From a virus, in IMG/VR virus record IMGVR_UViG_3300000228_000006, positions 1-64,000 of that record: a stretch of DNA of 64,000 bases. The stretch is one strand, 5' to 3'. Below the pieces are notes generated by a model. It was not told where the DNA came from, ran no database searches, and saw only the letters and a list, made by a program, of their open reading frames with translations. The stretch's first letter is position 1. Every line of letters starts with the position of its first letter. Positions 25,617 through 64,000 of the stretch are shown here, piece by piece. Position numbers and translations under genes: made by a program.

Positions 25617-28600
25617 TTACTCTTCTTGTCAAAATTCAAAAGCTTTTATATCTCTAGATACCATTTGTTGTATCGTTTTATCTCCTGTAAGTACTCCTTG
25701 AATATCTGAAGCTACTTTTGTACCATAGCTTCAAAAAACAGGTTCTGTTTTTATTGCTCCTAGTGTATTTCTCCACATATTTGTTTCAGATAACACTTTT
25801 TTATTTACGTTCTGTGCAAATAATGCAGCATTACCTGCAATACCTTCTCCTCCAGTTTCTTCTATTGTAGCATCTAAAATAGCTTTAAATATACCAAGAA
25901 TTATCATCATAAATAATGTATCAGCTAATCCAAACATTACTCTTCTATTTCTTTGTTCATCTGCAAAAGCTCCCTTAAAATCTCCCTGTAATAAATCTTG
26001 TGTTGTATGTAACATAGCATAAATTAATCCTTCCTGTGGTTTTCCAGTCCATTCTAATACTGGATCTCCAGTATTATCAGTAGTTTCTTCAAAATCTGTA
26101 ATTCTTTCAGGATCATATTTATCTTCATATAGGGCCTTTCTTCACCACTTAATAGGATTTTTCTGTTCATCAAAAGTGACTTTCTGTTGAAATTTACCTA
26201 TAGGACTTGGGTTTATTTCATTACCTTCTTTATCATGCGTTGGTTTACCAAATCACATCTTCATCTTTCCTGGCCAGAATTGCATAAATTGCATAAAAAT
26301 TACTCCATACCACATTTTTGAAGCTTGTGATGAAGCATCAGTATCATAATATCCATATGACATATCTGACATAGTTTTTATACTTGCTCTTTCATTTTCG
26401 CTATATGCTTTTGATACTAAAGCTGATTCATCCATTTTTATATAAGAAGGATCTACTAAATTTTCTTTATTTAAATCATTTACTAAATTTAAATATAAGT
26501 TTCGTTGTGTATTATATTTTTCATCTCCTTGTTTAGGAATGTAACGTCCTTTAGAATCCTTGTTATTTTCTCTTTCTTTAAAGTAATATTCAAATCTTCT
26601 ATCCTTAGATGGATTATAAATTAATTCTCCTTCTGGCGTCATAGAATGAGCATCATAAGAACCATCATGTATAGAAACTGCTAAAAATATAGCCATACGA
26701 TTATAATAATCTGGAATAGTGTTAAATACATACATATATCTGCCCAATCCCTTCATAATACCCCGCCTATCTGTCTGCATTTTTTTAGCAATAGAATTAA
26801 CGTCCATATTAGCAAACCTATATAAATTATTCATACCTTCTATTAAATTCCATTCAATAGATGTTTTTTTATCTATAGTAACTAATTTTTTATAGGCACT
26901 TAACATATCTTCAGTAGTAAATAAGTCTTTACCAAATATCTGTGTAGCAGCTAATGATATTCCTTTGAGAGTTCCAATAGTTAACTCCTTAGCTAATAAT
27001 GTAGGTCTAAAAGCAAGCATACCAGCTGTAGAAACTTGCTTAGCCGCAGAAGCTACTATCACTAAAGCCTCTGCTTCTGGGTCAATAATTGGGGCATCAA
27101 ATACAGATAATTTTAATTGATTTTCGACATAAGATAATTCTTTAGATATATTAGTATTAGTCTTACCTGCATGTAATTTCATCCACCATATATATGATGT
27201 AATAGCTGGTAATCTAAAATCCATTTGAGTTTTTCTAATTTTATTAAAAGCTACTCTATGTGCAATTGTATCTAAATTAAATTCATAATAACTAACACCA
27301 TTTTTTGAAATCATACTATGTTTAAATGCATCTGTTTGTTTTCCATAAACATCATACATTTCAGTATATCCTAATTGTGATTCTGATGCAATAGTACGTT
27401 CTTCGTCTGATAATTCTCTTGGGTCAAGTATATCTTTAAGTTCATTTATCCTGCCCTTAATTCTGGTTCAAACTTGCCCTAAACCTCCCTCAATTAATCC
27501 TCCATGCCTAGTTAATTCTTCCCTCCTTACTAATGGAATTTTAAAGTACTCTCCTGATGTAATAGCTTTTGCAATTACTGGAATAGACATTAAATCTTCT
27601 AATTTATTAGTACTTAATTGTCCACTCTCAAATTTACTTATAATTTCTGGATTTAAATGTAACATAAACTTTTGAATATGAAATAACATATTTTTTAAAT
27701 AAATTCTTTCACTATCATTTAAATTATTTTTTAAATCTACAATATATGGATTTTTAGTTTTAAATTCTATATTTACTTTACCATTATCTTGTAAAAACAA
27801 GTTAGAATGCTTACTTTGAGACTCCCCAACTCAATTTTGTGCCATATTTGAATAGCCAATTTTTTTATAGTAATCTCTAGTTAAAGATGAAATCTTAGCA
27901 GATTCCTTACACATTAACTCTGCAATTTTTGAGTTGCCTAAAGACATTATTTTATTTATAGTTCTAAGGTCTTTAGATGGTACTCAGTCAGGAGTTACAA
28001 AACTTAATCCTTGAAACAACCCCATTATTTTACGTTCTTCTTTATCAAAGTTAACTTCTCTTCCGCTATAAATAGCTCCCACTAAACTTTTAAAATCAGA
28101 GAAACCCAATCCCATTGTGGACATATTATGAAAATCTCCAACTGGTAAATATCCTAATTTTATGTTAATAGCCATTTGAAGCATTGCAAATAAATATTCT
28201 TCTTTATTAGCAAAGTCTGTTGTTGGAGAAAAAGTTCTATCAGTTAATTCCGGATATCTAGCTATAAACGCTTTTTGTACTAAAACTAAATGTTTATAAT
28301 CTGCACTAGCCCAATCAAAATCTCCTTGTTGTTTAAATAATGACTCTACTTCATTTTTATCAGTTCCAGAATAATTATTTAAAGTAGACCTTAATAAATC
28401 CATTACAACATTATCTACTGATTTAATATCACTAATTTTACTTAATTTATTTTTATGATTCATACTAGCCTTAATCATTCGCTGTTCATATAAATCATAT
28501 GCTTTAAAGTTTAACTCCTTATGATACTTTTTAGTTTCTAAATTAAATGTAATAATTTCCCCCAATTTAAATCCTCCAGAAAGTAATTCACTCTTAAATG

Positions 28601-30245
28601 TATTAAGAAATAGCATACTTTTAATTGTATCTATATTTCCATAACTTAAACCATTTAGTCCAGAGTCTCCATTTAATCTATGGATGGTTATGCTTAATAA
28701 ATTTATAGTGTGAGTTTTACGATTTCTCATAGGAATAATGCCCATTGCCCTAGCTTCTGGAATATCTATTAATTCCCATTCACTATTTAAATAATCTTTT
28801 AATAAATTATTTAAAAATATTTGCTTCTCTTTAATTGGGTATTTTAAAGCTGGATTTGAAGGATCACTAAGAACTGAACCAATAGCCTCACTTACAGTCA
28901 TTACATTTCTATTAACTTGTTTTTTAACATGTTCAACATAAATTTCAACTTTTTTTCTAAATTCCTCCTCTGTATTAGCAGTAAAAGGGCCTTTAGGTAA
29001 CCCATCTATATTATCATAATTATTAAATTTAGTCCATTGCCCATTTGTGTAGGCTTTTGCCATGATAGCCTCAACAGAAGAATCTTCATAATTAGTTTTT
29101 ATTTTATATCCAGGAATTAATTCATTTAAATCTAGTTCTAATTGTTTTTTCCTTTCTTCATTAACTTCAACTTTAATTCTAGTAGGTATTAATCATTCTG
29201 CAACCTGTGTTATAGCCCCATCTTCCCTTAACCCAGATTTAGTTTCCATTTTTCTATTGATTATATCTGTAAAAGTTAAAGAATTTGGGTCACCAAGTCT
29301 ACTAAATTGAATTGGTATAATATTTAATTGCATATTTTTAATATTAATATGCTGTGCTAAAAGCTGCCTATATAAAGCTAACTGCCAATCAACCGTTAAT
29401 AATTTAGCACTATCTCAATTATTATAATTATGTTTAGAAACTTTAATTTCATATACATGTGCATCACCTTTTTCATCAATAGCTACCAAATCAAGTTTAC
29501 CACTAACTTGAGCTATAGAATTTTCATCACTAATAAGGAGTAATTCTGTAATTATTTCATTATTAGGACTTATTCTTCTGCCTATTGTTTCTACTAATTC
29601 AGTAATAGATTTTGTTCATTCTTTTTCGGTAGATTCTCCAAGTATATCTTTATTCTCAGGGTCAATAATAAATTTATCTAATTCTTTTTTAAACTTTGAA
29701 CTAACTCCTTCTTTTAATGATATAGACAATAATTTATGTAAGAATATACCAAATTTCTTAGTTTTTTCTTCTTCTTTTATAATTTCTTCAATTTCGGATA
29801 AATATAAATTAATTACATTATCATTTATATTAGGGTTACCTTCTTGCCTTAAAAACTCCCTAGTTATTTCTAAATCTTTAGATACGAGGACTTTACTAAA
29901 ATCATAACTTGGGGATTGATTTTCAAGAACTCGTTTTTTTACGTAATGGTTTTTTCTATTAATCTCTATATATTGTGGAGTTAACCTATCCCTTTCTAAT
30001 CCTAACTTTACTAAAAAGTCAGTGTTAAGTTTAGACATATATTCTGTTGTAGAAATGACATCATGGCTATTAAGGTATTCATTTGCCTTCTCAGCTTCTT
30101 TCAATAAAATTTGTTTTACACTTGTCTGAATTTCTTCTTTACTGTAAATAGCTGCATTTCTAAGAATTTTTGTTTCCTTATAAAATTTATCAGCTAAGCC
30201 AATTAAATCCAACGGTGCATTATCTAATTCATATGTACATCCCAT
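25617..30245 (-). CDS. 1542-aa late protein with PD-(D/E)XK nuclease and C-terminal membrane-like segment
   Basis: One protein of 1542 residues once about ten TGA codons (for example 29616, 27984, 27468, 26253, 25731) are read as Trp. Residues about 240-300 hold a PD-(D/E)XK nuclease core: GKLDLVAID (Asp252), VYEIKVS (Glu266, Lys268), then WQLALYRQLL, the RecB/Cas4-like Q motif. The rest is helical and not recognised. Near residues 1438-1460 is a hydrophobic stretch LADTLFMMIILGIFKAILDA, long enough for one membrane span. It begins MGCTY, the same five residues as the gene upstream, after a single spacer base. Lying in the RNA polymerase block, it may be injected with the genome; that is inference. 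Confidence 0.82.
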
Positions 30246-30247
30246 TT
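30231..30247. repeat. 17-bp direct repeat at the start of the 1542-aa gene
   Basis: The plus-strand sequence ATATGTACATCCCATTT here is identical to 33598-33614. In both places it covers the start codon and encodes MGCTY on the minus strand. Confidence 0.8.
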
Positions 30248-33200
30248 TAATTACAATTTATTTCTAGTTTATTTTCTAATATTTTCTCTTCAATCCACTT
30301 TCTAAACTCGGCTTCAAACATAGTTACACTGTTATTAAACAAGTTATTACTTTCTTTAAAATCAATTGGAAGTAATGATTCAATGGTAGTGTTTAATATA
30401 TCTACAGGACTCAAGTCTTTAATAGTGTCTATATCAAATTTTAATCCCATATTTTCCATATGATTCATTAATAAATCAAGGAAGTTATTAATATCTCTTG
30501 GAAAATCTTCTACTGAAATCATTGCATTTGCTATATTTGTTACAAATTTTTCTTCAATTTCATCTAATGTATTCACAGTTAAATTCATTTCTTGTTTATA
30601 AGATAATAAAATATCTTCATAAACTTCTCTAGATTCATTTGTTGCATACTTTAAATTAATTAAGAACACATGTAAAAACTCATGTAATACATCAACTTTA
30701 TCAGTATTTTTATTATTTAAATTAATATAGATTTTACCGCCCTCAATTTTAGCATATTCGTTTGGCTTAAAATTACTACCATTTTCATCTATAATAACTT
30801 CCATCTTGTATTTAGCAAAAATATTTTGTAAATGTTCTACAAATTCTTCCATTACTACTTTTCGTGAAGTTGGCTTTTCTTTAAAATTTTCTTTTTTATA
30901 CTCTTTACTAAAAGTGTCAATTTTGCTATTCCCAACAATTCAATAATATTCAAATATTGAATTATCTCCATCATTACTTAATAGTACACTTAAAGGTATA
31001 GTTTTAAACTCTGTTAATAACTCACCATTATAAGAATAAACATTATATTCTAATATAGCATTAGTATCTGATAGATTATTAATTCTATAAATTTTCTCAT
31101 TAACATTTCCATTAAGCCTTAATTTAACATAAGCTCCTTTATTTAAATACTCTAGTTTCTTTTTATAGTCTAGTTTTTTAAATCCATTAACGGTAAATAA
31201 TCCCTTAGTTTGTCTAGGTATAATACCATTTTTATCCTTTGTTACTAATATCCTTTTAATGTCCTTTCCAGTTTTTTCTTTAATTTGTTTTAAAACTAAA
31301 TCAGTTATATTAGTATAATTGCTATATTTTTCAGTAGTACTAAAAATCTTTTCTACTACAATCCCCATATTAGGGATATTGTAATTTAAGACTTGTAAGT
31401 TATTTAACATACCTAATTTCTCATTTGGCAATAAGTATGCAACTTCCACTTTATTACTTACAATTTCTCCTTCAACTGGTTCTGCAAAGAATGATTCTTC
31501 TAATGTCCAATTATTAGTAGTAACTGTATTTAATGCGTAAGGTGATGATATTTTTCTTGTAGTATAAAATTTTAAATCTTCATTATTAAAATCTAAAATA
31601 CTTGTCAATCCTACAATACCTCCAGTAGCTTCTACAACTCTTCCAGAGACCTTATCTATAATTTTATAAACATTATATTTATTACCATTTTTGATAACCG
31701 CATAATCATTATTTTGTAATAAATTTAAATCATCAAAAGATGATAAGTTATTTTCTCTTATACTATTTCCCCCTAATAATTTATTATGTATATTAACGAT
31801 TTCTTCTCCTTCTGTAATATTCATTGTATTTTTATCAATGAACACAGATAATATTCTAGACCTTTTAATGCTTTCAATTTTAAGACCATCTGAATAGTTA
31901 ATTAAGATATAGACGTTATCAATATCACTATCTATAACTTTATTATATACTTTTTTATTTTTATGAGATATTTGAATAATATCTCCTATATTAGCTAATT
32001 TGCCACTACCATTTGAAATATTTTGAAAGTTTTTAAGAGTTGCAACATCTAATGGTTGAAAATCTATATCGTTAATTTTAGAGCTTCTTACTGATGTAAT
32101 AGTGTTAAAATCATAAATTTTATTATGAGTACCATTAAATTTAGTATTTAATATAATAACTCCTGGATAAACTGCTAAGACATAACCATCATATTTTGTA
32201 CCTCTTGATGTAGTGTATTTTATAAAACTACCTCTTTCTATATATCTTTGAACTACCTGTTTAGATAATCCAGCTTCATTACTTACAATATTACCATTAA
32301 TTTTTTCTTCTGAAGTTAAATCTGTTAAATCTGCTTCTACTATATCTTTTGCTTCAAATTTTCTATATTCAACTGATAAATTATCATTTTTAACTTTAAT
32401 TGTATCAAATGCTAATTCAATATTAGATTCTCCATCTAGAGTCCTACCTACTACTTTAATCCCTCCAGCATCAGCTTCTATACTTGTTGGTATAATTCAT
32501 TTGCCTTCTTTATATTTACCTTTTTCTGGCAATTTAATAATATCAACCCCTAATCTAATATTAGAATTTAAAAAATTTAAAGTTTCTAAAATTAGATCTT
32601 GTTTACCAGAAACTTCAAATTTTTCTTTTGGGTTATAATAAAAATTTCTAACTAGTGTATCATTATATACAATATGTTCTTGTACATCTAATAATTGTTT
32701 GGCTTTAAGATTTACAATATTATTTCTATCATATTCGTTAGATAATAATGTTTGCTCTGTAAAAATAGGCACTCCATACTTTTTTGGATCTAATGCTGCA
32801 AATAATTGTTTTGAAATACTTCTAAATTCACTCCCCTGCATTCTTCCAATTCCTTGTATATCTTCAGAACCTGTTCCTACTAAACTAACTAATGTATTTA
32901 ATGTTTTCCTACCTTCTATAGTATTAAATAACTTATACATTTGACCATCTTCAAATGAATCTTTTGTCATTTTTCCTAAAAAGAAATCTTTAACATCCAA
33001 TCCTTCTAAATTTATGGCATTTTTACTTACTCCCTTTAATGTTGTATTATATGCAGTAAGTACAGTGGTTAAATCTTCTAAACGAATGTGCTTTGCAAAT
33101 TTTGATTTAATTGCTACTAAAAATAAAGATAATGGATTATTATTTTGATAAAATCAAAATTCTGGTTTAGGAGTTTTACCTTCTACACCTCTGACAATAA

Positions 33201-33612
33201 TAGTATTATTTTCTTTACTTAAATGATTAATAGCAACTAATGTATTAGTTAATCTCTCTTGTTTTGTATGCATTATATCTAATGCTTTTAAAACATTCAA
33301 AGGAATTATACTATCTATAGCATTATTTTCTAATTCAGCTATTTTAGTATATAATGATTGAATTTCATTTTTAATTGAAGTTTTATTCACTATACCTAAT
33401 ACTCCAATATTCTTAAAATAATCTGGAGTTATTTCTACATTAACTTTATTCAAAATATTGCTTATCTGTTCTGATTTTACAGTATAATCTCGTCCTCATG
33501 CTTTTAAGGCGGTTTCGATTGAAGACATTGAGGCTTTAGATTCATCCTCAATATCGGTGGGGATTTTTAGTTCCCCACCATCTGGTAATTTAATAATATA
33601 TGTACATCCCAT
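30247..33612 (-). CDS. 1121-aa late protein with zincin-like metalloprotease motif
   Basis: One protein of 1121 residues after reading four TGA codons as Trp (30940, 32497, 33154 and one near 33490). Residues 977-981 are HEFLH in the context VDVLHEFLHVFLIN, the HExxH zinc site of zincin metalloproteases; a downstream Glu that would be the third ligand lies within NESREVYEDIL. The large remainder (MGCTYIIKLPDGGELKIP at the N-terminus, then beta-rich repeats) is unrecognised. It sits between the RNA polymerase and the 1542-aa protein. Zincin domains in this block have been reported for crAss-like phages and may process virion proteins; the role here is inferred. Confidence 0.8.
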
Positions 33613-33614: not shown

Positions 33615-33617
33615 GTT

Positions 33618-36600
33618 TTATTTACATTTTATTGTTATTATTAACGCATTTTCTTTAATATATTTAATAATATTTTGTATATTAAGGTATCGTTGTTTGT
33701 CTACTGATATTGGATCTAAAGTAGTATTTACTACATAGTCTGTATTTATAATCCTTAAAAGCTTTTTAGCTCCTGTTAATGGATCTTTTACATATAATTG
33801 TCCACCTTTATGAAAAGTATAAAATACAATATCATTTTTCATAGCTTGCTCAGCTTGAGTTAGTGTTTTTATCTCTTCTTTTGTCTTAATTGGTTTATTT
33901 AATACTTCTTTATTATCATCTGTATAATCGAATAAATCAATTTCACCAGAGTCTATTTTACTAGAAAAATGTAAATAATTATTACCTACAGTATTTGGCT
34001 CTTTAATATAATCTTCAAAAATTGGTGTCAGTCTTAAATCTCCATATGATTCATTATTTACAACTAAATTATAAACATAAAATAAATCTCGTCAACTCAT
34101 ATCTACTCCCTGAACATTTTGTAATTTTTTCTTATTAAGGTCTAATTCATTAAATTCACTTAATAAATTTTGAAACTTATCTAAATTTACTGGATTATTT
34201 AATTGAGACATACTAAATGCAGAAACAATAGCACTCATTCTTGAGCCATAAGCAGTTCTTAAACTACGAATAGTTAATGATTCCATAAATTTAGGATTAT
34301 AGTCAGCTTTCTTTAAGATTGGAACAATTAACTCTTCCATTATTTTTTTAAAGTTTGCTATTCCGTGATCTGTATCTAAAGTTACTAATAAATTATTATC
34401 TCCTTTTACAGTAATAATCTCAACACTATCCTTACTAATTTTAGAATTAGCATTATATAATACGATTTCTTCTTCTCCTGCTAATTTTAATAATTCTTTC
34501 ACGTCAAAACTAATATTTGAAGGGGATGTTTTATCATTTGAGTCTTTGGATTGTGCTCATTTACCAACTAAAAACTTATCAAAAGCTAGTAAAGCCTTTG
34601 ATAAAGCTATATCATTAATTTTAAGAGGTAATGCCCTATTTCCCATTTGATGTTTTAAATTTTCATTTAAAGTTTGTAACTCATCCGTTTTTTCTCTAGC
34701 TATACTTCTAAGATAATCAAATGCAAAGTTATACTTTTTTGATAACTTATTTAGTATATTATGAGATATTTTTACTCCATCAATCATAGCTTTAAAATGT
34801 GGCACTGATTCAATTACATCAAATACATTAACTGTATCTTTTAACAGGTTATAATAATCTGCAGTAACTTTTCTGTAAGTGTCATTCTCATCCTTAATAT
34901 ATTCCCTAAAATCAAATTGACCTCCTAAAATTTTATATTTTACAGCATTATTTAATACTTCAATAATCTTAGATTCACTAACAGTTTTATTATTTTTTTT
35001 AATCAGTTTTATAAACTTTTTATCTGCTTCAGAGTTATTTCCAAAATCTCTTAAATAGATTAAATCATTTCCAAAAATTGCATGTTCTCTGGCAAACATA
35101 GTTGTTTCTAAATTGGTTAAAAACTTATTTAACTCTTTAATATTTGCAGATGTTTTTTGATTTACTTTTAAAAATCCAGATAACATTCTAAATTCTTGAG
35201 CTCCACTATACATAGATTTAAATGTAGCTAAGTCTGGACTAATACCATTAGCTTTTTCATAAGTTTGTAAAATCGTCGCTACAAACACACTATCATTTCC
35301 GTCAGACTCTAAAAATAAATTAGTTTCTAAACTTTTAGCTATATCTATCGCAACTTTGGAGTTCATAAATTTAGCAATGGTATTTTTATCAATACCAAGA
35401 GATAACATATATAAATGCATTGATGCTAATTCAACAGAGGCATTCAATTTAGCCATAGCTAATTCTTTTGCATTATCAGTTGCAAGTGATGTAAATCCGG
35501 ACATTGCAATAGCAGCTTGACTTTTAAATACATCTAACTTTTGCTCGCCTTTAGATATAAACTGTTCTAATTGAGTTATTTGATGTTTTCTAATTCTTAC
35601 ATCAGATAAAGTTGAAATATTATAACTCGTTTCTTCCATCACAAATTGCTTATTAAACAACTTATAATCATTGTCTACCACAGTATAATCTGGATCACTA
35701 TAATGGTTATTATAATATGAAGTTAATGCAAAATAAACTTTTAGGCCATTAGCTGCAATACCTACATCATCTTTACCAACAGAGGCATCTTTTTGTTGTT
35801 GCATTATGCTTATGTGGTCTAAACTTGATAATAAAAATTGAACTCCACCCTTTGCTTTTAATCCTTCACTTGCTGCATTTTGCCAATCTTCTACCTCTAC
35901 AGGTTCATTTGCAATTAAATAATTACTTGGAGCTGATATAATATTTTTAATTCTACTAATTACTGAATTATTTATTGCACTTTTCTTGTATAAATAATCT
36001 GTTGATAAATTATAATCATTAATTAATTTTATAAAATCTTTTGTAAATTTCGAATATAATGGATTATTTCCTAAATTTATATGTAATGATTGGGATTTAT
36101 TAATTTTTAATAGTATATCTCTTAATTTATTAATAGAATCTACTGAAAAATTTGAGTTAATTGTAAAATAAGGCACTTTTTCTCCTTTCAAATCTTGAAC
36201 TATACTACCTCAAACTTCTTCCATAGAATCTATAGTGTCATTATCTACACTATCAATAAATGCTTCAAATTCATCAGATAAATCTATACTATCAGCTATA
36301 CCAGCTGGAGTATATAAAGCTTTAGGAGTAATAATTTTCTGTCCTCTCGTCTTTCCTTTTGTAATTCTATTATTTGGAAATGGCAATGTTTCTATAGCAT
36401 TAAGTACTTCTTTTGAATTATAATTTAAAGGTGCTCACGAATCATATTGTCCATTTTTATCAAAGCCATATCCCATTATATATGCTTTATCAATATCAAA
36501 GTCAGAACCTTGCAACCAAAGTTGTCATGTTGATACATAAGCATCATTACCAGAAGCACTATTGTTATTATAGCCAACATTTCTCATTTCCATAAAAGAT

Positions 36601-51400: not shown

Positions 51401-51443
51401 CCAATACTGCCACCATCATATCATTTGCTTTAGTTATTTCCAT
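42417..51443 (-). CDS. 3008-aa giant late protein with embedded SF1 helicase
   Basis: A single reading frame of 3008 residues after reading eleven TGA codons as Trp (among them 42771, 44550, 45984, 47778, 48972, 50004, 50841). Residues about 1780-2170 form an SF1 helicase: Walker A GGGGTGKTT (1792-1800), Walker B LLLIDETTHFS (Asp1926-Glu1927), motif III AGDTNQIGK, motif V NIQGNESDYFIFD and motif VI FYTYISRAKNG (from 2146). The N-terminal 700 residues contain Ala/Gly-rich and mildly hydrophobic stretches (AGFATLAVAAGQYGVMM); the middle is coiled-coil-like, Glu/Lys/Leu-rich. It starts two bases after the 625-aa gene and ends 25 bases before the polymerase gene, so it is probably a virion cargo protein. 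Confidence 0.85.
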
Positions 51444-51444
51444 A

Positions 51445-53322
51445 TTATTCTATTAATTTTTTTGCATTTGCACTTACTGGTTTATTTCCAGTCATATTTG
51501 GGTCTTCTTGTAAATTTCTTTGAATGTCTGCAATACCTGCAGCTGGCCCATATAAATGTGAGTTAATTGCAGCTATTTGTGCTGAAGCATCTGGTCTATA
51601 TGCTATATATGTCATTCCAGCTAGTGGTCTTTCTAATGATAAAGTTCCTTTTGGAATTACTTTTTTAATAATTGGTTTAGCTGTAGTTCCTGAAGTAAAT
51701 GTCCAGGCTTGTTCCATTAAATTTGTAGCTATATCTGCATTATCTCCAATTAATCTAACTAAATTTTTATTATCTGCAAATTCTGTAGCTGAGTTAGTTA
51801 ATGTAGGAATTGCTAAAAATGGTTTAACATATTTATTATCTCTAATAACTTTAGTAATTTTACCATCTTTGCCAGGGATAGCATCTATATAAATATTAAA
51901 ACCAGCGTCATGGAATCTTTTTTCTGCTACTTTAATGGACTCTTTATCTTTATTTGCTTCATAAACTGCCATTAAATCCTTAAATTCTTGCATACTTTCA
52001 AAATCAGGTAAACCTCCATCTTTAACTGGTAAAAGTACCTGTGCTACATCCTGTCCATTGTAGACTAAATTTTGTAATTGAATTGGATTAATTTTTATAT
52101 CCCCTAAATAGGCTTTATTAATATCTAATAAAATACCCAAACCACCTTGAGTTAAAGCATTAGCCACTGTAGAAACTCCAATTTGTTCATTATTTTTTAA
52201 ATTTAGCAATGGCCCAATAGACGAAGCATGAATTGACATTTTTGTTCCTTTATTATTATTAATGTCATAGTTATTGCCAGTTATGTTTAATTTACCTGAA
52301 TGGAATAATTCTGTAGGGGATAAAGCTATATTTTTAACTGCCTCTCCATTTTTTCCAGTTCTATTTCCATCAGTATCTTTAACTTCTGAAATACTTACAT
52401 CTGATTCTGGAGCATAACTTGCAGTTAATAATTCTTTAATAATGGTTTTTGAATCTTCTTTGCCTTCCATTATTGTTATGAGTTCTAATTTTCTTTGGGC
52501 AGACTCTCCTAATGTAGACCATATATAATTTAATGCAGTAGTTAAGTCTTTTTGTTTACTGCTAGATGTAATTTTATAAGAGCCATCAGCAGTTATACTA
52601 GATAATGCATCTAATTCTTTTTGAGTTGGCTTTCTACTTCCTGTAATTTTAGCTATTTCACTTGACATGTCCTTAGTTGCATAAAAATCTGTACTATCAG
52701 ATGCTAACTTAACCATTGATACAATAGATTGCACATGGTCACTAATTTTATTCATGCCAATAGAAGTGTTAGCTACTTCAAAAACTCCATTCTGTCCTGT
52801 TAATTGTGCTTCAAAATTCCTAGCATTTAAAAGTTCAGATACAGTTAATAATTTAACCTTACCTTTATTTTCTTTATAAGTATTTAAACTAATAGCTTGT
52901 ATTTGCCCATCTCCTCTACGAGTGTAAACCTCATTATTAGTACCAATTGCAGTTTCTCCATATCCACCTGTTTTTTCTGAAGTTGCAACAGCAGAATCCC
53001 AAGCTTTCTTATTTTCCATTAATTGATTTACTTTAGCAATTTGTTGTAAATAATTAATCATTGGCTTAGCCCCAAATGTATTTGAAGCTCCAAAATAATC
53101 TTGTTGTAATGTAGTCATTTTAGTAGCAAAATCATTTACGTCATTTACTAATCCAGCTCCCATTAATTTTTCATAAATTTTATCATTCATAACACCCTCT
53201 TCACCAGATTTCTCTGATGAAGATGCTTGTGTTGATGTTGATGTTGATTGTTGTGGTGCTGGATTAATATAAGGAGTAAAAGTTATTCCTCCACCTCCTG
53301 CCAATTTTAATGTATATTTCAT
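51445..53322 (-). CDS. 625-aa late virion protein candidate
   Basis: A 625-residue protein in one standard-code ORF: unusually for this module it contains no TGA; all its Trp codons are TGG. It begins MKYTLKLAGGGGITFTPY, followed by a Ser/Thr/Gln-rich stretch (residues 25-40), then a helical and mixed body without recognised motifs. The Gly-Gly-rich N-terminus resembles other late proteins here. Three bases separate it from the upstream 1565-aa gene and one from the 3008-aa gene. Position suggests a structural or cargo protein. Confidence 0.75.
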   Translation of the reverse strand: MKYTLKLAGGGGITFTPYINPAPQQSTSTSTQASSSEKSGEEGVMNDKIYEKLMGAGLVNDVNDFATKMTTLQQDYFGASNTFGAKPMINYLQQIAKVNQLMENKKAWDSAVATSEKTGGYGETAIGTNNEVYTRRGDGQIQAISLNTYKENKGKVKLLTVSELLNARNFEAQLTGQNGVFEVANTSIGMNKISDHVQSIVSMVKLASDSTDFYATKDMSSEIAKITGSRKPTQKELDALSSITADGSYKITSSSKQKDLTTALNYIWSTLGESAQRKLELITIMEGKEDSKTIIKELLTASYAPESDVSISEVKDTDGNRTGKNGEAVKNIALSPTELFHSGKLNITGNNYDINNNKGTKMSIHASSIGPLLNLKNNEQIGVSTVANALTQGGLGILLDINKAYLGDIKINPIQLQNLVYNGQDVAQVLLPVKDGGLPDFESMQEFKDLMAVYEANKDKESIKVAEKRFHDAGFNIYIDAIPGKDGKITKVIRDNKYVKPFLAIPTLTNSATEFADNKNLVRLIGDNADIATNLMEQAWTFTSGTTAKPIIKKVIPKGTLSLERPLAGMTYIAYRPDASAQIAAINSHLYGPAAGIADIQRNLQEDPNMTGNKPVSANAKKLIE

Positions 53323-53325
53323 ATT

Positions 53326-56300
53326 TTATTTAAATACTTTTATTAAAGAATCTTGCATTAATTTATGATTAGCTAAGATCGTTTTATATAATAATCTTAC
53401 TTCTTCAATACTTTTTTTATTTTCATTTTTAATATTCTCAATATCTATCTTATCTTGTTTAGATAAACTGCCTCCTTTTTTGTTATAAGTTGGTTGATTA
53501 TACATTAACTTCATTTTTACAATATTAAGTCTATCAGTTCAATCTTCTATACTTTTAGTATAGGCTGTTCTAGCATTTGTCAAATCGAGGTATCTTTGAG
53601 ATTGATTTCAAGGTTTCATTGTATTACTGCCTTGTACTTTTAAAGCCTCTGCATTATAGTCAGTTTCAGCTTTTGCAAATGCAGCATCATCATACAGTTT
53701 AGATTTATCTCTTAATGCTTTATATTCATCCCCAGTTTGCATTGCAATTAACTCAGAATAATCTTTTTCACGTTTTCTATTTGTAAGATTTTTTAAATAT
53801 GATAATCCAAGATCATTTTTAATTTGGTATCTTTGAGCTATCCTATTAGCTTCAATTAAATTAGCTTTATTTGCTCCTTCTTTAATAGATGCATTATTCC
53901 AATCAGCAATTGCAGTATTTCCAACAAGTGTTTTATAATCAGCATTAGCTTGTGCTTGAATACCTTTATTATATAATTCAGTTCCTCTCTCTCTATAACC
54001 TGCTGCAGCTTCTTCTCCTTTAGTAAACATTTGTAACTTTGCAGCCATTTGTTTATTTCCGTCAGAATAGGCATTTCCTGTGCTATTGCCAACTGTATTA
54101 GCCTCTGTTTTTACATTTTGAGCCATTCTATCATAAGGATTATACATAATAATCCTTTGATTAGGTTGCATAGTTTTAGTTGCTACATTAGTTACTGCTT
54201 GAATTTGTTTAGCAGCACTTTGATCAACAGCGTCTAATCCTTTTAAAGCTAAAGTAGTGTTAACTATATCTGTAGGGTCTATTTTAATTTTACCTCAATT
54301 TATAGGCTTAGATTCAGCTTTATATGCAGTTCCTGTTTTATCATTTACAATAATAGGAGTTTCTACTATTGGTTTTTCAGAAATAACAGCAGGAGTAGGA
54401 GTTGGTGCTTGTTCCGTTTTTACAGGTAAAGTTGCTTGGTATTTTTTCATTACAAAATTTTGTATTGGGCCAAAATAATTATCTGTAACAAGCCTGGTGA
54501 ATTTATTATAATCTTCTGGAGTTAATCGAACCGAGCTTTTAGTAGCAGTAATGTGCTTATTTAAGTCTGGCAAATACTCTAAAAATTGTTGTTGAGAAAT
54601 ATTATGTCTAAAAGTGTCCCACTCTGGTGTCTTTTGAAATTCGGTAGGTTTTCCATAAGGAATGTAATGCTTTAAATTCTTTGGAATTTTTGCATAATCC
54701 ACTAAAACTTCATTTCTAACAATTCCAGGATCAGCTGGGATTTGATGTTTTACAATTCCACCTTGTTGTCTTTTCAAAATTCTTTGTACCTCAGCTCTAT
54801 ATTGATTAAATTTTTCTTGTGTTTTAGCATAGGACTTTTGAGTTGATTCATTGTCTTTTGTTTTAAGCTTTATTTTAAGTTTATTAACTTTTGCACCTAA
54901 ATCCCTATTTTTAACTTTATTGTTCATTTTTTCCTGCAAAGCTTTAATTTCTTTCATTTTTGCAGCACGTTTTGCAACTTCTTCTGGGCTTCTAGTTACT
55001 TTTGGAATAGTTCCTTGATAATCATTAAGGTATTTTTTAGCTAATTCATAATCTCTAGTATCAATAGATCTATCACCATTTGGAGTTACTTTTGGGCCTT
55101 TACCTAAAATACGTAAATCACCTTTAACTTCATGAATAGCACTAACATTAGATAATTTTAAATCTTTTAAAGTTTTCATTTCAGCCTCTGTAATCTTACC
55201 CTCAGCTTTTAATGTAGCTATTAATTCATCTTTCAATTTATTATCAATCTCCTCATTTTTAAGAGCAATTTTTTCTTTATTTTGAAATGGAAGTTTATCT
55301 TTATTTAATCCTAATACTTTACTATCTTTTGGCCTTTCAATTGTTTTATCAACTGAAAATTCTTTATCACCTAATTTAAAAGTAGTTTCACCTTTAGTTT
55401 TAGTTCCAACAGTTGTTTGTCTTTTGATTGCTCTTATACCTTCAAAATCTTTATACCAAGTTTTACCAATACTACCTGCAATAGCCATAGCTTTAAAATC
55501 TTCTGGTCTAGTATATTCTATACCATCATTAGATATAGTTGAAACCACTCCTGGAGCAGCCATTAGTCCTGGAGTCATTCCAGCAATTCTTGCACTATTT
55601 CTTACAAATTTATTTTTTGTTAATTTAGTCAATAATTCTGATGAATTTGGTATACTTTTCCAAACAGCTTGTGTAGCAGCTCCTAAAGTAGTACTGCCAA
55701 GTAATGGAATTGAAGCATTTTGCACAACTTCTAAAGCCTCCATACCTTCCTTAATAACTTTATCAGCTAACACTTTTTTAGAAGCATCTAATTTAACTAC
55801 TTTTTTAAGTAATTCTTGCGTAGTTTTAGTGCCATGTATTTTATTTAAAGTTGCTATTTCTTGTAATGCAGTTTTTTCAGAGGAAGTTAACACTTTACCA
55901 AGCTTTTCAGATTTTGTTATTACTTTTGCAATATCAAACCCCTTGTCAACTGTTTTACCTAATTTAAGTAAAGTTTTAACTCCACCTAAACCAATTAGTG
56001 ATAATCCAATAAACCCGAAATTTAGTATATGTGTCCCTAAATCATCTACTTTACCATCTAATAAATCTTTAGTTAAATCTGCGCCTGTTGTTACAGTTGC
56101 TCCAATTGCACCAGCTACTGGAATAAATGAAGCCACTGTTCCCGCGGTTGACAATACATCTAACCCATTCTCTCTCCAATCTTGCCCCTTCCATGTACCT
56201 GTTATATCTTTTGCTCCTCTTGTTGTTTTTTCTGTTTTTTCTGTTGAGGCAGTTGTAGAGTTTAATTTATCTTGGTAGGCTTTAAAATCAATACCTTTTT

Positions 56301-58023
56301 GAGCTTTAATAATTCCTCCAACTTTATGTTTCATTATACTAGTTCCTCCTAAATGCTTATTATATGTATCCAAGGCTGCCATAATTCTTTTCTTTAACTT
56401 TTCATCATTTTTTACAACTGGGTCCTTACCTAAACTTCATTTTAAGGCTATTGCTTTGTCTGTTAAATGACTGCCAGTTTCTCCTTCTCCTTGATTTTCT
56501 AAGTTAGCTTTTTCAATAGCATTTAAGTCATCTGTATAATCATATACTTCTCCTGTTGTTTCCGCTTTTGGAATTTTATCAAACGCTACATCATAGTTTA
56601 TTGCCATATTAATTTCACTGCCATACCCTTTTAATGTAAATTCTTGGCCATTAACTGAATATTTTCCATTTACTGGACTTACATCAAATGTTTTTCCACC
56701 ATAAGTAACTTTTAATTGCTTAGAATAACTCCTTCTGCCTAAAATGTCTGTGTTGTACTTACCATCTTTATCATCTGACCACCCCACAACTTTATACCCT
56801 TGTGGTAAATCAGTTAAAATTTCTCTACCTACATTACCTCAAGTCTTTTCAGGATTTTCAGCTAATAATGCTTTATATTGATCAGATGTATTATTTTTTG
56901 TATAAATAAAGCCGTGATTAGGATCATTATACCAAGCTGTCCCATATTTAGGATCAAATTGATTTGATACATTAATACCTTGAAAATCATTCCCATTTTC
57001 ATCAATTACTCTACGTTTACCTGAAGTAGTATGAATTAATACTTTAGCTCCTTTATTACGAATTAAAGTATTAATATCTTCATTTTGAAATTTATAATTT
57101 GGATTATATTCATACCCAGCCTTAGCTAATTCTTGTGCTTTTTCTGGTGAAGTTATCTGTGTTAATCCAGTATATGCATTATTAAGTTTTATAGTTAAAT
57201 CTTCTGCTTTTTTAGTGTCTGCTTCTAATTTTAATTGTTCTGTAGTTTTAAGAAAATTTTCAGTACTAATCCCTAATTTATCAAAAATTCCTTGATAATC
57301 TGCTAATTTTGTAGCTCCAGTCGATGCTTTAGTATTGAAATCATTCAAAGATTGCACTGCTAAATTATATTCTTTTTCATCATATTTATCAACTCCTTTA
57401 TTAGCTTTATTAGTTTCATAATTAGTTTTATATGTTGTAAGTAAATTTTTTAAGTTATTTACATAGAATATATTTTTTTCTTCTTCTGTCATTCTATTAA
57501 TAGCTTCACTTGTAACTTTTACATCATTATTATATTGTGAAGTAAGAAAATCAGTGTATTTTGGCATAACTCTTTCATAGCCAGCAGGTGTAGTAGTTGG
57601 TGTAGTAGTTGGTGCAGTAGATATAATACCCCTTAAATCAGCCATTGCAGATGATAATCCCCTATCTTGTCTCTCTGCTTTATTCTGTTCTTTAGTTCCA
57701 AATAAACTACCATGTGTATATCCTTGTAATCCAAGGAATCCTTTATCTAAAGATACTCCTTGATGTCCGCTTCAATCTTGCGATTTTAAATTTTCTGGTA
57801 ATGCAGCCACATTAACAGTATATGTTCTATCTGGATTAAATTTAACAGCTTCCTCAAAATTTGGTAAATCTAATAAACTCTCGACTTGTTTATATTGATC
57901 ATGGGATTTACGTTGGTCTTTTGAAGATAGTGTGTAAAATTTATCTCATAATTGTTTTTTTAATTCAGTTTTATCAGGAGTTGGGGTTGTACCTCCTTGT
58001 TGTAATTTTTTTATTTGAGACAT
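53326..58023 (-). CDS. 1565-aa giant late protein with hydrophobic segments
   Basis: One protein of 1565 residues joined through about seven TGA-Trp codons (53608, 54295, 56437, 56839, 57946 and others). The N-terminus is MSQIKKLQQGGTTPTPDK. Around residues 625-690 are two hydrophobic stretches (FIPVAGAIGATVTTGA and ILNFGFIGLSLIGLGG) that could cross a membrane. Two inner Gly-Gly/Lys/Gln motifs (KVGGIIKAQKG, KRQQGGIVKHQ) recall those at the ends of other late proteins. No enzyme motif. It is probably an ejected cargo protein that helps DNA pass the envelope, by analogy with podovirus ejection proteins. Long antisense ORFs within it are shadows. Confidence 0.78.
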
Positions 58024-58054
58024 GTTATTATATTATATATTATAATGTAAACTC

Positions 58055-58186: not shown

Positions 58187-58199
58187 ACTATAAATACAA

Positions 58200-58234: not shown

Positions 58235-58242
58235 TAATTTAG

Positions 58243-58518
58243 TTATTTTCTTCCTATCAAGATTAATCCTTTTCCTCCCATTTTACCACCACGTTTGTAT
58301 ACTGGAGGTCCTTGTGGTTGTACTGCTCCTACTTGTTGCGCTGCTCCTTCAAGCATTTGCATAATCATTTGTGCTAACATTGCAGCTCCTTCTGGACCTA
58401 CTTGTTGAATAATCTGTTGTGCCATTTGTGCAATTTGTTCTTCTGCACCACCACCTTGAGGCTGTCCTTGCTCTACTTGACCACCCTCTTGAAACTTTTT
58501 AATAAAATTTACTGTCAT
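58243..58518 (-). CDS. 91-aa Gln/Gly-rich late protein
   Basis: A 91-residue low-complexity protein: N-terminus TVNFIKKFQEGGQVEQGQ, then a Gln/Ala/Met helix (AAMLAQMIMQMLEGAAQQVG) and a basic end (YKRGGKMGGKGLILIGRK). The KKFQEGG start matches KKLQQGG of the 1565-aa protein. The helix may be amphipathic and membrane-active, which makes a small virion component or a lysis helper possible; neither is proven. Confidence 0.65.
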   Translation of the reverse strand: MTVNFIKKFQEGGQVEQGQPQGGGAEEQIAQMAQQIIQQVGPEGAAMLAQMIMQMLEGAAQQVGAVQPQGPPVYKRGGKMGGKGLILIGRK

Positions 58519-58575
58519 TTTTTGTTTTTGTTTAATTAATTAATATATGTATGTCCTCATATGCATTTAATCATC

Positions 58576-59151
58576 TTATTTCTTAGTTACGTATTCTGGG
58601 TCATTACTTTCTTGAGTGTCAAGAAATTTAAAAACTCTTTTACCTAAATTTATATAATCATTATCTTTATCTGTAGCAGCTGCTTTTTTAGCAAACTTAA
58701 TTAGTGTTTTTGAATTTGGTCTTGAGAATATTCTTTCACCACCTTCTAATTCCATTTGTGTTCCACCATCACTACCTAATATCTTCATTTTATTCTTAAC
58801 TGTATGATTAGTTGAGAATTCTAATTCATCCCCTGGCTTAATCCCAGAGGGTGTATTAACTTCTAAAACAAATGCAACATCAGTTTCTGTAATTGGTGTT
58901 TCATCTTGTGGAATTCCTTGCTTAACCGATATAACCTCCATTTCTTCATTTATAAAAATGATGTCTAATGGTATTAAAGTACCCTTCATTCAAAATGAGC
59001 TTTCAGATTGTATTTCATTATAAATAAATAACATTCCTCCATCATCTTTAAGTGATTCAACATTCATCAATCCATTTTCATGTTCTGTGTCTGTTTCTGC
59101 AACTTTAACTTTATATTCTTTATCAGCAATCTTTATATTTAGTTCTTTCAT
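58576..59151 (-). CDS. DUF192-domain late protein
   Basis: A 191-residue protein with one TGA-Trp (FWMKG, near 58990). Residues 20-115 match DUF192: ENGLMNVESLKDDGGMLFIY, then SSFWMKGTLIPLDIIFINEE and VLEVNTPSGIKPGDELEF. The Trp encoded by TGA is the conserved Trp of the FWMKNT core. DUF192 proteins in bacteria and archaea are small envelope or secreted proteins of unknown role. The last 65 residues (MELEGGERIFSRPNSKTLIK, LGKRVFKFLD) look like the end of the 412-aa protein. Start chosen at ATG 59151, which fully contains the domain. Confidence 0.8.
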
Positions 59152-59166
59152 TCTTATTATTTTATA

Positions 59167-59174
59167 CAAAGATA
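59167..59174 (-). promoter_or_regulatory. possible late promoter box
   Basis: CAAAGATA on the plus strand is TATCTTTG on the minus strand, a match to TAnnTTTG, 16 bases ahead of the DUF192 ATG in a 97-base AT-rich gap. No TTTG at the -33 spacing is seen, so it may be chance or may use another factor. Confidence 0.35.
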
Positions 59175-59248
59175 ATAAAATTATTTTAATTAATAACTAT
59201 AAAAAATTAAAAAATTAAAATAACTTTATTATGATGAGTTTAAATGAG

Positions 59249-59806
59249 TTAGTTTACAAATTGTTTTAGTATATCTGTGATATCGTAATTTATAGAATCC
59301 CCTCGTTGTTTTTTAGTTAAAAAGGAAGATTTATTATTCTCATTTAACAATGGATTTTTAACACTGTTTAAATCATTGTAAGATCCAACTTTTCTAGGAG
59401 TTTCTAGCTTATTTACTAATGAATAAAATGCTGTAGTACTGTCATTATTATTTCTCATTAACTCATTATCAAAATCAGTTTTATGAATATCTATAAATTG
59501 CTTTGCTGGCACAGTTTGAGTACCTAATCTTTGAGTTGAGTACTTAATTAAATGCTTTGGCAAAGAAGTTGTAGATTCTTGTATTTTACGAATACTGTTA
59601 TGTATTTCCCCAACTTTACTATCAAATGCTAAATTAACAAAAGAGTCTTTGGTTATAGGATTTAGTTTAGTAATCTTATTAAATAAGACATCGTTAGATA
59701 CAATAGCATTAACTGCGTTCTTATACTCTGGAGTATATTGGCCTTTATTCAATCCTCAGAAATCTGTAGAAGCCCCCGTTTGGGCTTTTAAAATATATTT
59801 TTCCAT
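59249..59806 (-). CDS. 185-aa late protein of unknown function
   Basis: A 185-residue protein starting at ATG 59806 (MEKYILKAQTGASTDFWGLN); the Trp in DFWGL is TGA. A shorter start would leave out the conserved-looking first 19 residues. It is helical and polar, with no motif. The start lies only three bases after the stop of the 412-aa gene and the KAQTG segment recalls the KAQKG motif of the 1565-aa protein, so a structural role is likely. Confidence 0.7.
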
Positions 59807-59809
59807 AAT

Positions 59810-61048
59810 TTATATTGTTTGAATTAGTCCTGTATTATCAATTGTGTTTTCTAAAATTTCAAACACTAAAAGTTTACCTGCTTCTAATGCAGCTGTGTTA
59901 TCTCCCTCTTTATACCTTTGATTTAAAGCCTCTAATTCTTTACTAACTTCTAAATGGAAAGTAATCTCATTTCTTTCAATTTCAGCATGTTGTTCAATTT
60001 TACCTCCCTCTTCAACTGTAATTACAGGAATTCCTGTTGTAGTAATATCCTCAACTCCTTCAATATTATGTTTATGAGCATGTAAAGCACCTTCTGGTAT
60101 CAAATTAAATTGACCACCACTAGCAAATAACGTTACATCATCACTAATAGTTTCTCCAGTATTTTCATCTAGAAGTATGAGGTTTTTGATGTGGTTAGCT
60201 TTAGCTTTAATATTCTTAAGTTGAAGTTTAGTACCTTTTTTAGCTAATAAACCCTTAGTTGGATCAAATCCTCCTAATTTATTTATATTAGAAATACTTT
60301 TTTGCTGTGCTAAATCTAAAGCTCCCATTTTTAACTGATCTTGTTGTTTACTAACTGCCTTAGCTAACCCTGCTTGCTGTATTACATTATTTTTAGCTGC
60401 TGCAAAATCCTTCATCTTCTTACTATCAGTTCAGCCAAAGGCCTTGCCCATGACAGCATCACTTCCAGTTACTCCTCCATAACCACTTCCAATACCATCT
60501 AAATTAACTTGTCGTGTAGTTCCAGCTTTTTTACTCAATGCTCCTCCAACAATATTATTTACAGCTCCAAATGTTTCTAATGCTATTTGTATACCTTGAC
60601 CTCAAGGCCCAAAATTACCTGCAATACTGCCTAAAGCAGAAGCTGCATTACTAGCAGTTGAGTCAGCAACAGTACCTCCTGAAGAAGATATAGCAGATTG
60701 AATTCCTTGAGATATTGCTGGAGAAAGAGCTGCAGCTATGTTTAAACCATTTGGTGCTTTAGCATCCGGATTTTCTGTTTTTGTAGCAGTTCCAGTAGCA
60801 TCTGTCCCTTTCTTTCCTTTAGTATAGTTCTTAGAATTACTTCCTAATAAAGAGTAATCAAATTTTATGGACTTGTAATCAAATCCCTGTGAATTATTCC
60901 CAAATCCCTGTGAATTGTAATCAAATCCCTGTGAATTATTCCCAAATCCCTGTGAATTGTAATCAAGCTTCTGTGGATTGTAATCAAATCCTTGTGTATA
61001 TGGAACAAGTTCTGTTTTTCTTGTTAATTCATTAAATTTTCATGGCAT
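59810..61048 (-). CDS. 412-aa late structural protein with heptapeptide repeats
   Basis: A 412-residue protein with three TGA-Trp codons (codon 3, GPWGQG and FGWTDS). Residues about 17-63 are six to seven copies of a seven-residue unit of the type GFDYNSQ or GFGNNSQ. An Ala/Gly/Ser-rich, mildly hydrophobic middle follows (LNIAAALSPAISQGIQSAIS and AGNFGPWGQGIQIALETFGA). The C-terminal 110 residues (FNLIPEGALHAHKHNIEGV, VEEGGKIEQHAEIERNEITF, AALEAGKLLVFEILEN) look like a domain shared with the DUF192 protein. Similar proteins lie beside the tail genes of crAss-like phages. Likely virion or ejection component. Confidence 0.75.
60881..61003 (-). repeat. 21-bp tandem repeats coding for heptapeptides
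   Basis: Units start at 60881, 60902, 60923, 60944, 60965 and 60986. The first four alternate between two 21-bp versions, giving a 42-bp repeat present twice; the last two are diverged. All are in frame in the 412-aa gene. Confidence 0.9.
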
Positions 61049-61086
61049 AATTGTGAAAAGATTTTAATTTTTTATATTTCATGTTT

Positions 61087-64000
61087 TTAACTATAACTAA
61101 TAGTAAATGTTGTTTTAATTCCTTGCACTATTGCAAGGTCTGTTCCAGAGTATTTAACTCTTACTTTAATGTATTTATCTCTAATTCTTGCCTCTTTTCC
61201 AGTAGTGAAACTTAAGATTCCATTACTTAAATAAGCATACTTAAAGTTAATAGGCTTAATTTCAATATCTCAAGAATCTTCTAAATACTGCATATTACCT
61301 CTCATTCTACCATATTTTTTCAAATCATTTCCAATTTGTTGAGTATGTACTTTATCTTCACTTAAAAGATTATCTGTTATAAGTTTAGTGTTTGCTGTAT
61401 TCCATTCATAATTATTTTTTCCTATTACATTCAAATCAGCAGGGCTTATATACCGCTCTCTTGGTAAGTATGGTAACTTTGGTATTTTATAAGAATCACT
61501 TACATTAAATAATTTTGGAAAATCTGAATAAGTACTCTTTAAATAGGCATATGTATTAGCTAAAACTGTTGTATATCCAGTGTCAATACTATTAAATGTA
61601 TCATCCTTATGCTTATCACTAATTCAAACTATAATATCTTTATAATTAAATCAATCATAGCCTTCCCCAACTACTTCAAATTCAAATGAATTAGGTGCAG
61701 CTTTATTAGATATTAATTTAAGATTGTTATAAATTTTTTGAACTGCTGGATTTTCAGCTACAACAAATTCAAATTCAAATGGGTGTAAATCACCATATCA
61801 ATTTGTTGGAAGAATCTTTCCTTGATTTGAATATATACCAGATTGACCATGTTTTCATATTTTATTCCCAATTTTTTTATTAAAACTAAAAAATACATTG
61901 TTTATATTAGCAGAATAACTTGGTAGCCAAGAATAAAGTGTAATAAACTTTTTAAGGTTTTCATTATAACATAAATTCCATTCTTTATCCCCATTATAAA
62001 ATGTAAACATAATATCTCCTTTAGAGGCATTATAATGTGTTTTTACATTTCTAGTACCAATTATTGGTAATTTATCTGATTCTTTTAAATCTATATTTTC
62101 ATTTAAAAATCTTTGTACTTTTAAGTCAGATATAGTAACTAATGTTTGACCATCAGACATTCATATTTTTTTAGCTACAGTATCTACTCCGTATATACCA
62201 GTTTTAGTCTTAATAACTGATTCTTGTCAAGTACTCCCATATAAATCAGAAATTACCTTAGGATTTTCTGGGAGAACATTACTAGTATTAATATATATAC
62301 TGCCACCAGCACCTTCTCCTGCTATCGCTCTCTCATTAACTGGAATTAATAAACAACCATGTTCCATTGTGACGAAAAGATTGCCATATCATTCTTTCAT
62401 GTCTACAATTGCTCCATATGTTTTTGTATAATCTCTATAATGTCCTGCATTAAATACCCTATATCCATTTTTAAATGCATCTGTGGGTGCTAAATCTGAA
62501 TATAATATTCTATTGCCAAAGTAATTTTTAATAAATGGAATGTCTGGAGTAATAAAATTAGAACGTTTAGATAAAGTTACATTAGCTGCACCATTAATTA
62601 TATTGGAATCTGGCAGTTTTAAATCATCTGACATTTTATTACCATATGGATAAAACTCTCTTTTATGTCCATGTATAGCTTCTTCTGTAGGATCAGAACT
62701 ACCTAGATCTCTCATAGCTATATTAATACTAGACATAACTTTAAATGTAACTCAATGTCCTAATGGAACAGCATTTACATCAGCTCTATTAATTTTATCA
62801 CATCCTCTAACTGTATATGTTGTTGAGCCAAAAATATTCCCCAAACCTGTTCCAGCAGTATCATATCCAGCATCAGATGGCTCTATTATTTCATCAGTGC
62901 CATTTTTTTGTTTATATGTGATTAATTGTCTATTATTTCCTGGTGCATCAGAATAGACTGCATAATTATTTTTCCATGTGTTTCGGTCAATTATTTTTGT
63001 ATTTGTTGGTAAATCAGGATCAATAAAATTTCTATTCATTCTATGAGTAAAATTATTAATATAACAATCTCCTCTGTATGCAGTTACTATATTATCTATA
63101 GCAAGAATAGAATTAAAAGACATTCTATCAGTAATTGCCATGTAAGGCTCTGATGAATTCATCCTAATATCAAACATATTAGTACTATATATATCTGTTA
63201 TATCAAAATCTTCTCCTCTTACATTAAATACAGTATTGAATGGCAATTCTACATTTAATCCTACATATGTGCCAAACTCTCCTCTTACTTGATACACGCT
63301 ATTTTTTAAAACAGGGTGCATCCCTGATGCAACAGCATAATTTCATGGTGTTTTAACATTTACAGTCTCCCAAGCTTGTTCTGCATTTCCAGCCTTAGCT
63401 GAAAAATAATCACTTCCATTAGTAGTTAATGTTAAACCATCATTTACAAGAGTTAATAATGATTCTATTATTTCATTATTATTTAATGTTGAATATCTAT
63501 CTATAATATAATGATCTGAGTTTTCTATCTTTTTAAATCCACTATTACTAACAGGCTGTTCAAATGCTTTAGTTAATTTATATTTAGTAGAGGTAAATAA
63601 TTGATTAAATAATGAAGTTCTTAATGACGCTTCCGGAATTATACTTGCTTTATTTTCCAAGTTTTCTAAATCATGTCCTTCTAATATCTTTGTTGTTTTC
63701 TTTAAATACCTACTGTCATCTAAAAAGTGTTGTGATACTCCTTTATCATAAGCTTTGATTATAGGTATATTACCATAATCATTTTTTGTTTTAGCAATAC
63801 TTATACCTTGTGCATATATTGTTGGTATGCGTTCTTGTCGTACAATAAAAAACCCTTTTGTATATTTCTTTAATTCGGTTAATGTAGAGTCATCTTGGAT
63901 TTTAAATTTTATGCCTAATGGCTTCACACCATTATTAAAAATCACCTGACGTTTGTTTATTTTAATTACTCCTAGTGCATTTTCAAATGAATTAACTCCA
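61087..64000 (-). CDS. large crAss-type tail structural protein (5' end outside window)
   Basis: The visible part is about 970 residues, open to base 64000 and so truncated at its N-terminus; ten TGA-Trp codons are included (63343, 62752, 62389, 62161, 61855 and others). Sequence blocks such as YRVFNAGHYRDYTKTYG, MEHGCLLIPVNERA, GIYGVDTVAKKIWMSDG and NVKTHYNASKGDIMFTFYNG resemble a beta-propeller-like region of the largest crAss structural protein, possibly the tail muzzle; this rests on memory of the family and is not certain. The gene ends 38 bases ahead of the 412-aa gene. The apparent GTG start at 63945 is internal because the frame stays open beyond it. Confidence 0.75.

Follow-up and report, generated by a model that had tools for sequence, protein, structure and literature searches.

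Gene layout of the record

We analysed the tryptophan codons of a bacteriophage known from the 75,878-bp IMG/VR record IMGVR_UViG_3300000228_000006, bases 1-64,000 of which are the stretch examined here (the window). In this phage TGA, a stop codon in the standard code, appears to serve beside TGG as a tryptophan codon in one set of genes and is nearly missing from another. Replication genes lie on the plus strand up to 24.6 kb and are followed by a lysin gene; the minus strand carries the virion genes and several giant genes. We refer to the two blocks as early and late, classes assigned from gene content and strand. The gene of the major capsid protein (MCP), just past the window at 74308-75645, matches the crAss capsid profile PF23898 (E = 3e-14, 52.7 bits, cut-off 27), a match that places the phage, on sequence grounds, among the crAss-like phages (Crassvirales). 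The crAss ring/tail protein profile PF25702 was matched weakly (E = 1.3e-5; 25.4 bits, under the cut-off of 27), and the TerL of the relative G001, a gene lying beyond the end of the present record, matches annotated crAss terminases. The features of the window are as follows.

66..24591, plus strand: early/replication block (helicases, primase, DnaB-like helicase, AAA ATPase, ribonucleotide reductase (RNR) large subunit, Dda-like helicase, DNA ligase); 3 TGA / 81 TGG
6776..6778, plus strand: in-frame TGA, at codon 18 of the Holliday-junction-resolvase/DUF1064 gene (6725-7258), which may start 3' of it
10038..11108, plus strand: LAGLIDADG endonuclease within an intron-like insertion; codons 4 (10047) and 119 (10392) are TGA
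24599..24642, plus strand: predicted hairpin, a strong intrinsic terminator (19-pair stem, T-run) at the end of the early operon
24712..25572, plus strand: endolysin (phrog_181 / GH19-like); TGA at 24937, 24976 and 24991, 0 TGG
25576..25615, plus strand: second strong predicted terminator, where the lysin and the late block converge
25617..30245, minus strand: late gene, 1542 amino acids (aa); 10 TGA / 12 TGG
30247..33612, minus strand: late gene, 1121 aa; 4 TGA / 2 TGG
33618..42392, minus strand: giant late gene, 2924 aa; 9 TGA / 8 TGG
42417..51443, minus strand: giant late gene, 3008 aa; 11 TGA / 6 TGG
51445..53322, minus strand: late gene, 625 aa; 0 TGA / 3 TGG here, 4/1 to 5/2 in orthologues
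53326..58023, minus strand: late gene, 1565 aa; 7 TGA / 8 TGG
58243..61048, minus strand: four small late genes; 5 TGA / 0 TGG in total
61087..64000, minus strand: virion structural late gene, 1379 aa, continuing to 65226 in the full record; 10 TGA / 6 TGG

A PHROGs scan that covered three of the large late proteins (1542, 1121 and 1565 aa) gave no match. The 1565-aa protein, used as a single query, found no relatives; its orthologues are nonetheless present in the genomes that we fetched. Contig L007, which overlaps the right end of the record (99.98% over 4,337 bp), extended the sequence by 9.7 kb, and scans to join the missing part of the genome, from both the TerL side and the helicase side, returned short or non-joining contigs only.

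Tryptophan codons in early, late and capsid genes

TGA and TGG were counted in frame with checked gene models for 33 early plus-strand genes, the lysin and 11 late minus-strand genes. The TGA/TGG counts were 3/81 in the early genes, 3/0 in the lysin and 56/45 in the late genes of the window (70/64 across the late genes of the whole record); within the window, early and late genes thus differed strongly (Fisher p = 1.1e-15; gene-label permutation 0/20,000). Among genes with a tryptophan codon, 2 of 29 early genes and 13 of 14 late genes (capsid block excluded) contained TGA. A sequence-only reading of the window had put about 56 TGA codons, counted by hand, in a late block at 25617-64000, three in the lysin and three in the early genes, two of these in a mobile endonuclease. 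The counts proved exact, the block had been placed correctly, and the early/late contrast held under exact counting.

Two other apparent early TGA genes, 5664-6713 (codon 2) and 23383-24591 (codons 5 and 9), were artefacts of over-long TTG starts. The resolvase gene 6725-7258 could start downstream of its TGA at codon 18. In the LAGLIDADG endonuclease, codon 119 is the tryptophan of the LAGLIDADG-type motif AYWLGFLYADG.

We compared proteins across eight non-redundant genomes, the present one and seven fetched relatives; the relatives are distant (mean amino-acid identity ~50%, one at 70%) and their gene models mechanical. Of the residues aligned with a late-gene TGA, 50% were tryptophan (TGG: 61%), and conserved tryptophan columns were encoded by 1 TGA and 251 TGG in early genes and by 187 TGA and 141 TGG in late genes. 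Coding density was 0.96 under code 4 compared with 0.84 under code 11, and nine fetched relatives showed the strand asymmetry of TGA seen in the present phage. Judged from these alignments, TGA in the late genes is a tryptophan codon.

Among the other purine-ending synonymous codons, the fraction ending in A was 0.878 in early and 0.871 in late genes, so that a neutral TGA share of roughly 0.87 is expected throughout. The observed share of tryptophan codons was 0.55 in late genes, under this expectation, and 0.036 in early genes, far under it; exclusion from early genes therefore fits better than enrichment in late ones. The late block is itself uneven, with 2/14 in 69752-75645 (MCP and neighbours, just past the window) and 68/50 elsewhere in the late genes (p = 9e-4). 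The late enrichment proposed by the sequence-only reading thus holds as a contrast, but the late block is not uniform and the anomaly sits on the early side: the signal is better put as avoidance of TGA in early and capsid genes than as accumulation in late genes.

The two blocks are on different strands, as would suit a mutational or strand bias, or early genes acquired recently from standard-code sources. The control with A-ending codons rules out mutational or strand bias as the cause, the shares, like the coding-strand GC skew, being alike in both blocks. As to recent acquisition, the early core genes are common to the clade down to ~40% identity and keep TGG at 251 of 252 conserved tryptophan sites. 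We assign next to no probability to this pair of explanations.

The lysin lies on the early strand and carries the late signature (3 TGA, no TGG), as had been read from the sequence alone. The predicted hairpin at 24599-24642, one of three strong plus-strand terminators in the record, parts it from the ligase gene, and a similar hairpin precedes the gene at the lysin position in G001, G002, G003 and G005, making five genomes with the present one. The TGA counts are small, but insulation from the early operon by this conserved terminator offers a straightforward explanation of the late signature. The lysin of G002, with a related N-terminus and another catalytic domain, again has 3 TGA and no TGG, and that of G007, on the late strand, has 2 and none. 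The lysin position is taken in G005 by another gene (tape-measure or peptidase-like, 2/0) and in G001 by one with 0/1. As a separate observation, small plus (early) strand genes within the late region of G005 (198645-206900) contain TGA and almost no TGG; one of them resembles a DnaD-like helicase loader.

Two meanings of TGA and a suppressor tRNA in the relatives

In the relatives, early genes taken as code-4 frames had 52 TGA and 47 TGG in their last 10 codons versus 112 and 852 in the body (p = 4e-20), and the same difference was found with early genes that have orthologues only (22/29 versus 43/543, p = 8e-11). These terminal TGAs often lie past the end of the orthologue; in late genes, by contrast, most terminal TGAs are aligned with tryptophan. 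The early ones are best taken for normal stops, with a TAA following in frame by chance; so read, they put both meanings of TGA within one genome, and neither code 4 nor code 11 would be correct for gene calling across a whole genome of this clade. No selection for back-up stops was seen after the early TGA stops, the next in-frame stop coming at a median of 6 versus 7 codons (TAA/TAG; p = 0.49). A weaker trend of the same kind was found for TAG (p = 0.001) in the early genes of a sister clade, the frames of which are open only under TAG = Gln.

The late strand encodes a tRNA(TCA) in three relatives with genomes of 172-213 kb (G001, G003 and G005); their 20-odd ordinary tRNAs are on the other, early strand. 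At 11 fetched TerL loci of the TGA clade, a set that includes near-identical contigs and partly coincides with G001 and G003, and likewise in G005, tRNA(TCA) lies upstream of TerL on the same strand, and all copies have G73, the tryptophan discriminator base. Genes from the tRNA to TerL had a TGA/TGG count of 47/137, and TerL and later genes 203/105 (p = 3e-18). In the sister clade a tRNA(CTA) occupies the equivalent stretch, ahead of the same run of genes from the exonuclease to TerL. Derivation of the suppressor from the phage's own tRNA-Trp(CCA) is not favoured: for most TCA tRNAs the nearest non-TCA tRNA was the sister-clade tRNA(CTA), at an identity (0.70-0.82) too weak to prove descent. 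Beside the suppressor tRNA, no theta ribozyme or other Rfam element reached the gathering threshold, and the seven phage genomes gave no release-factor or TrpRS (tryptophanyl-tRNA synthetase) family matches.

Other RNA genes were noted in these relatives. In G003, a TGA-recoding genome with tRNA(TCA), the early-strand array also holds a tRNA with anticodon CTA (24197-24271); both suppressors are likewise reported for phage Lera (PMC12386605). G005, which has a large tRNA array, contains a predicted tmRNA gene (L061:8160-8566; tag peptide GNKTISFARTAFMAAA), as well as two RAGATH-1 hammerhead ribozyme matches above the gathering score (L059:17201-17278 and 19692-19760) near the boundary between the early and late strands.

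If the host itself decoded TGA as tryptophan, a switch would be unnecessary, and the lack of a tRNA in the present record would suit such a host. Yet the relatives encode their own tRNA(TCA) and use TGA as a working stop in early genes, and the early avoidance of TGA would lack a cause. We consider a host of this kind highly improbable; the early TGA stops of the relatives are, indirectly, support for a standard-code host.

Probably the phage grows in a standard-code bacterium and switches the meaning of TGA in mid-infection, the codon contrast being due mainly to purifying selection before the switch together with avoidance in the MCP gene. The host release factor RF2 terminates translation at TGA. 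Initially, RF2 would outcompete any reading of TGA as an amino acid, so that genes needed early must exclude this codon. A suppressor tRNA-Trp(TCA), presumably charged with tryptophan and encoded near the 5' end of the late strand upstream of the terminase, as in the relatives, would then build up; from that point TGA would mean tryptophan and late genes would be free to drift between TGG and TGA. TGA would thus be selected against in genes translated before the switch, avoided in the gene of largest output (MCP) and tolerated elsewhere. The lysin, although on the early strand, would form its own transcription unit behind the terminator and come under the late regime.

Several points weigh against this account. 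No tRNA was found in the 75.9-kb record or in the 9.7-kb extension provided by L007, an absence that says little because both stop before the syntenic site. None of 28 early genes of the window phage ends on TGA, the dual reading being seen in the relatives only, which are distant (~50% identity), and the early and late classes follow from gene content and strand. In addition, the MCP gene, late by any account, avoids recoded stops, for which timing alone is insufficient.

Agreement between TGA- and TAG-recoding clades

We compared the two clades family by family. In the TAG-recoding genome G012, early orthologues had 1 TAG and 171 CAA/CAG codons and late orthologues 484 and 337. The TGA share of a family in one clade closely followed its TAG share in the other (rho 0.84, 40 families), also among late families only (rho 0.79, 20 families, p = 3e-5). 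Tail and giant genes had recoded shares of 0.6-1.0. In the TGA and TAG clades, respectively, the shares were 0.07 and 0.12 for MCP (3 TGA / 42 TGG over seven genomes; 2 TAG / 15 Gln codons), 0 and 0.11 for the 277-aa gene at 69752-70585, and 0 in both for the late-strand exonuclease. Because each clade has its own recoded codon and amino acid, its recoded sites accumulated separately from those of the other.

This agreement raises the prospect that each gene has a set degree of tolerance for a recoded stop, whichever stop that is, a proposal that we regard as evenly balanced. The same genes would be exempt in both clades (nearly all early genes, MCP, the MCP-neighbour gene and the late-strand exonuclease), one syntenic decoder slot upstream of TerL would hold a TGA-reading or a TAG-reading tRNA according to clade, and early genes would keep the standard code, TGA being a genuine stop in them. 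With different codons recoded in one and the same set of genes, the sister clades allow gene-specific selection to be told apart from codon-specific accidents.

Judging from MCP, the recoded codon seems also to be avoided in genes with very high output, and expression level alone could be proposed as the cause: slow or leaky decoding of TGA would lead to its avoidance in highly expressed genes, whatever the time of expression. The TGA-poor MCP block (2/14 versus 68/50) agrees with this, as does the poverty of MCP, the 277-aa gene and the exonuclease in both clades. However, nearly all conserved early genes are at zero, whether large (RNR, helicase, ligase) or small; there is no reason why all early genes should out-produce tail proteins, and the early TGA stops of the relatives require a state in which TGA terminates. 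Expression as the sole cause therefore seems improbable to us.

A further explanation shares the decoding switch and adds selection for TGA in late genes: TGA would be kept in lysin and virion genes as a timer, preventing lysis and assembly from starting before the suppressor has built up. Borges et al. reportedly proposed in 2022 (Nat. Microbiol. 7:918) that recoding regulates lytic genes, an interpretation that the sequence-only reading took over. The lysin counts point this way, with 3/0 here and in G002 despite the different catalytic domain and 2/0 in the late-strand lysin of G007, as do the recurrence of the gene-specific pattern in the TAG clade and the finding of no recoded peptides in the expected early-protein fraction by Peters et al. 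2022 (PMC9523058). Yet the lysin counts are tiny, the late share (0.55) lies under the expected ~0.87, and MCP, an obvious target for delay, has almost no recoded codons in either clade, which argues against a plain timer that holds back all virion proteins. We regard selection for a timer as possible but doubtful. Since late TGA is not above the mutational expectation and MCP avoids it, tolerance after the suppressor has built up explains the data and no timer is needed. Of the sequence-only interpretation, what stands is TGA as tryptophan in late genes, in keeping with the late-strand tRNA(TCA) and early TGA stops of the relatives, and the late signature of the lysin; a delay of virion proteins as the purpose of recoding is not supported.

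The core phenomenon is already published (Yutin et al. 2021, PMC7886860; Peters et al. 2022, PMC9523058). In the part of Yutin et al. considered here, crAss-like phages of the Zeta, Beta and Delta groups recode TGA to Trp or TAG to Gln and, like the present lineage, switch over short distances among TAG, TGA and the standard code, with large genomes and many introns. In the metaproteomic work of Peters et al. on code-15 crAss-like phages, recoded peptides came from structural proteins, and the presumed early-protein fraction yielded none. The recoded stop in late structural proteins and the standard-code early region are shared with our phage; theirs is TAG to Gln with proteins detected, whereas TGA to Trp is known here from genes alone. 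Phage Lera (PMC12386605) resembles ours in TGA to Trp, a tRNA-SUP-TCA, recoded structural and lysin genes and ~25 other tRNAs, but recoding in Lera extends to TerL, RNA polymerase and a helicase, whereas the early-block helicases here are TGA-free. A concentration-driven switch is described in the theta-ribozyme paper (PMC10879173). Compared with the nearest deposited phage genomes, the present lineage (IMG/VR contigs) reaches <=46% identity in MCP, and the relative G001 45% in TerL. The gene-by-gene agreement of TGA and TAG, the MCP exemption and the early TGA stop go without mention in the considered part of Yutin et al.; as far as the cited literature was covered, these and the conserved terminator before the lysin position appear to be additions. 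The lineage thus allows tests of why phages recode stops.

Insertions interrupt several genes of these phages. The LAGLIDADG endonuclease of the window lies in an insertion (9941-11305) that breaks the AAA ATPase gene within its Walker A motif (P-loop), leaving exon-like parts at 9528-9941 and 11305-11865; the gene is uninterrupted in G002 and G001. The insertion had no Rfam match at the gathering threshold. Its 3' part (11046-11300) is 72% identical to a portion of an insertion that L120 carries in its TerL region, which suggests that it is probably a mobile intron. TerL genes are broken by insertions in three contigs (L120 7694-10439, L150 10001-13003 and L121 10001-12746), and in the TAG-recoding G011 (53401-57344) and G013 (153606-160192) the MCP coding sequence is in several pieces, as if split by introns. 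A NUMOD/homing endonuclease between MCP and the next late gene (L003:9516-10613; record 73015-74112) has 0 TGA and 4 TGG, unlike the TGA-bearing early endonuclease.

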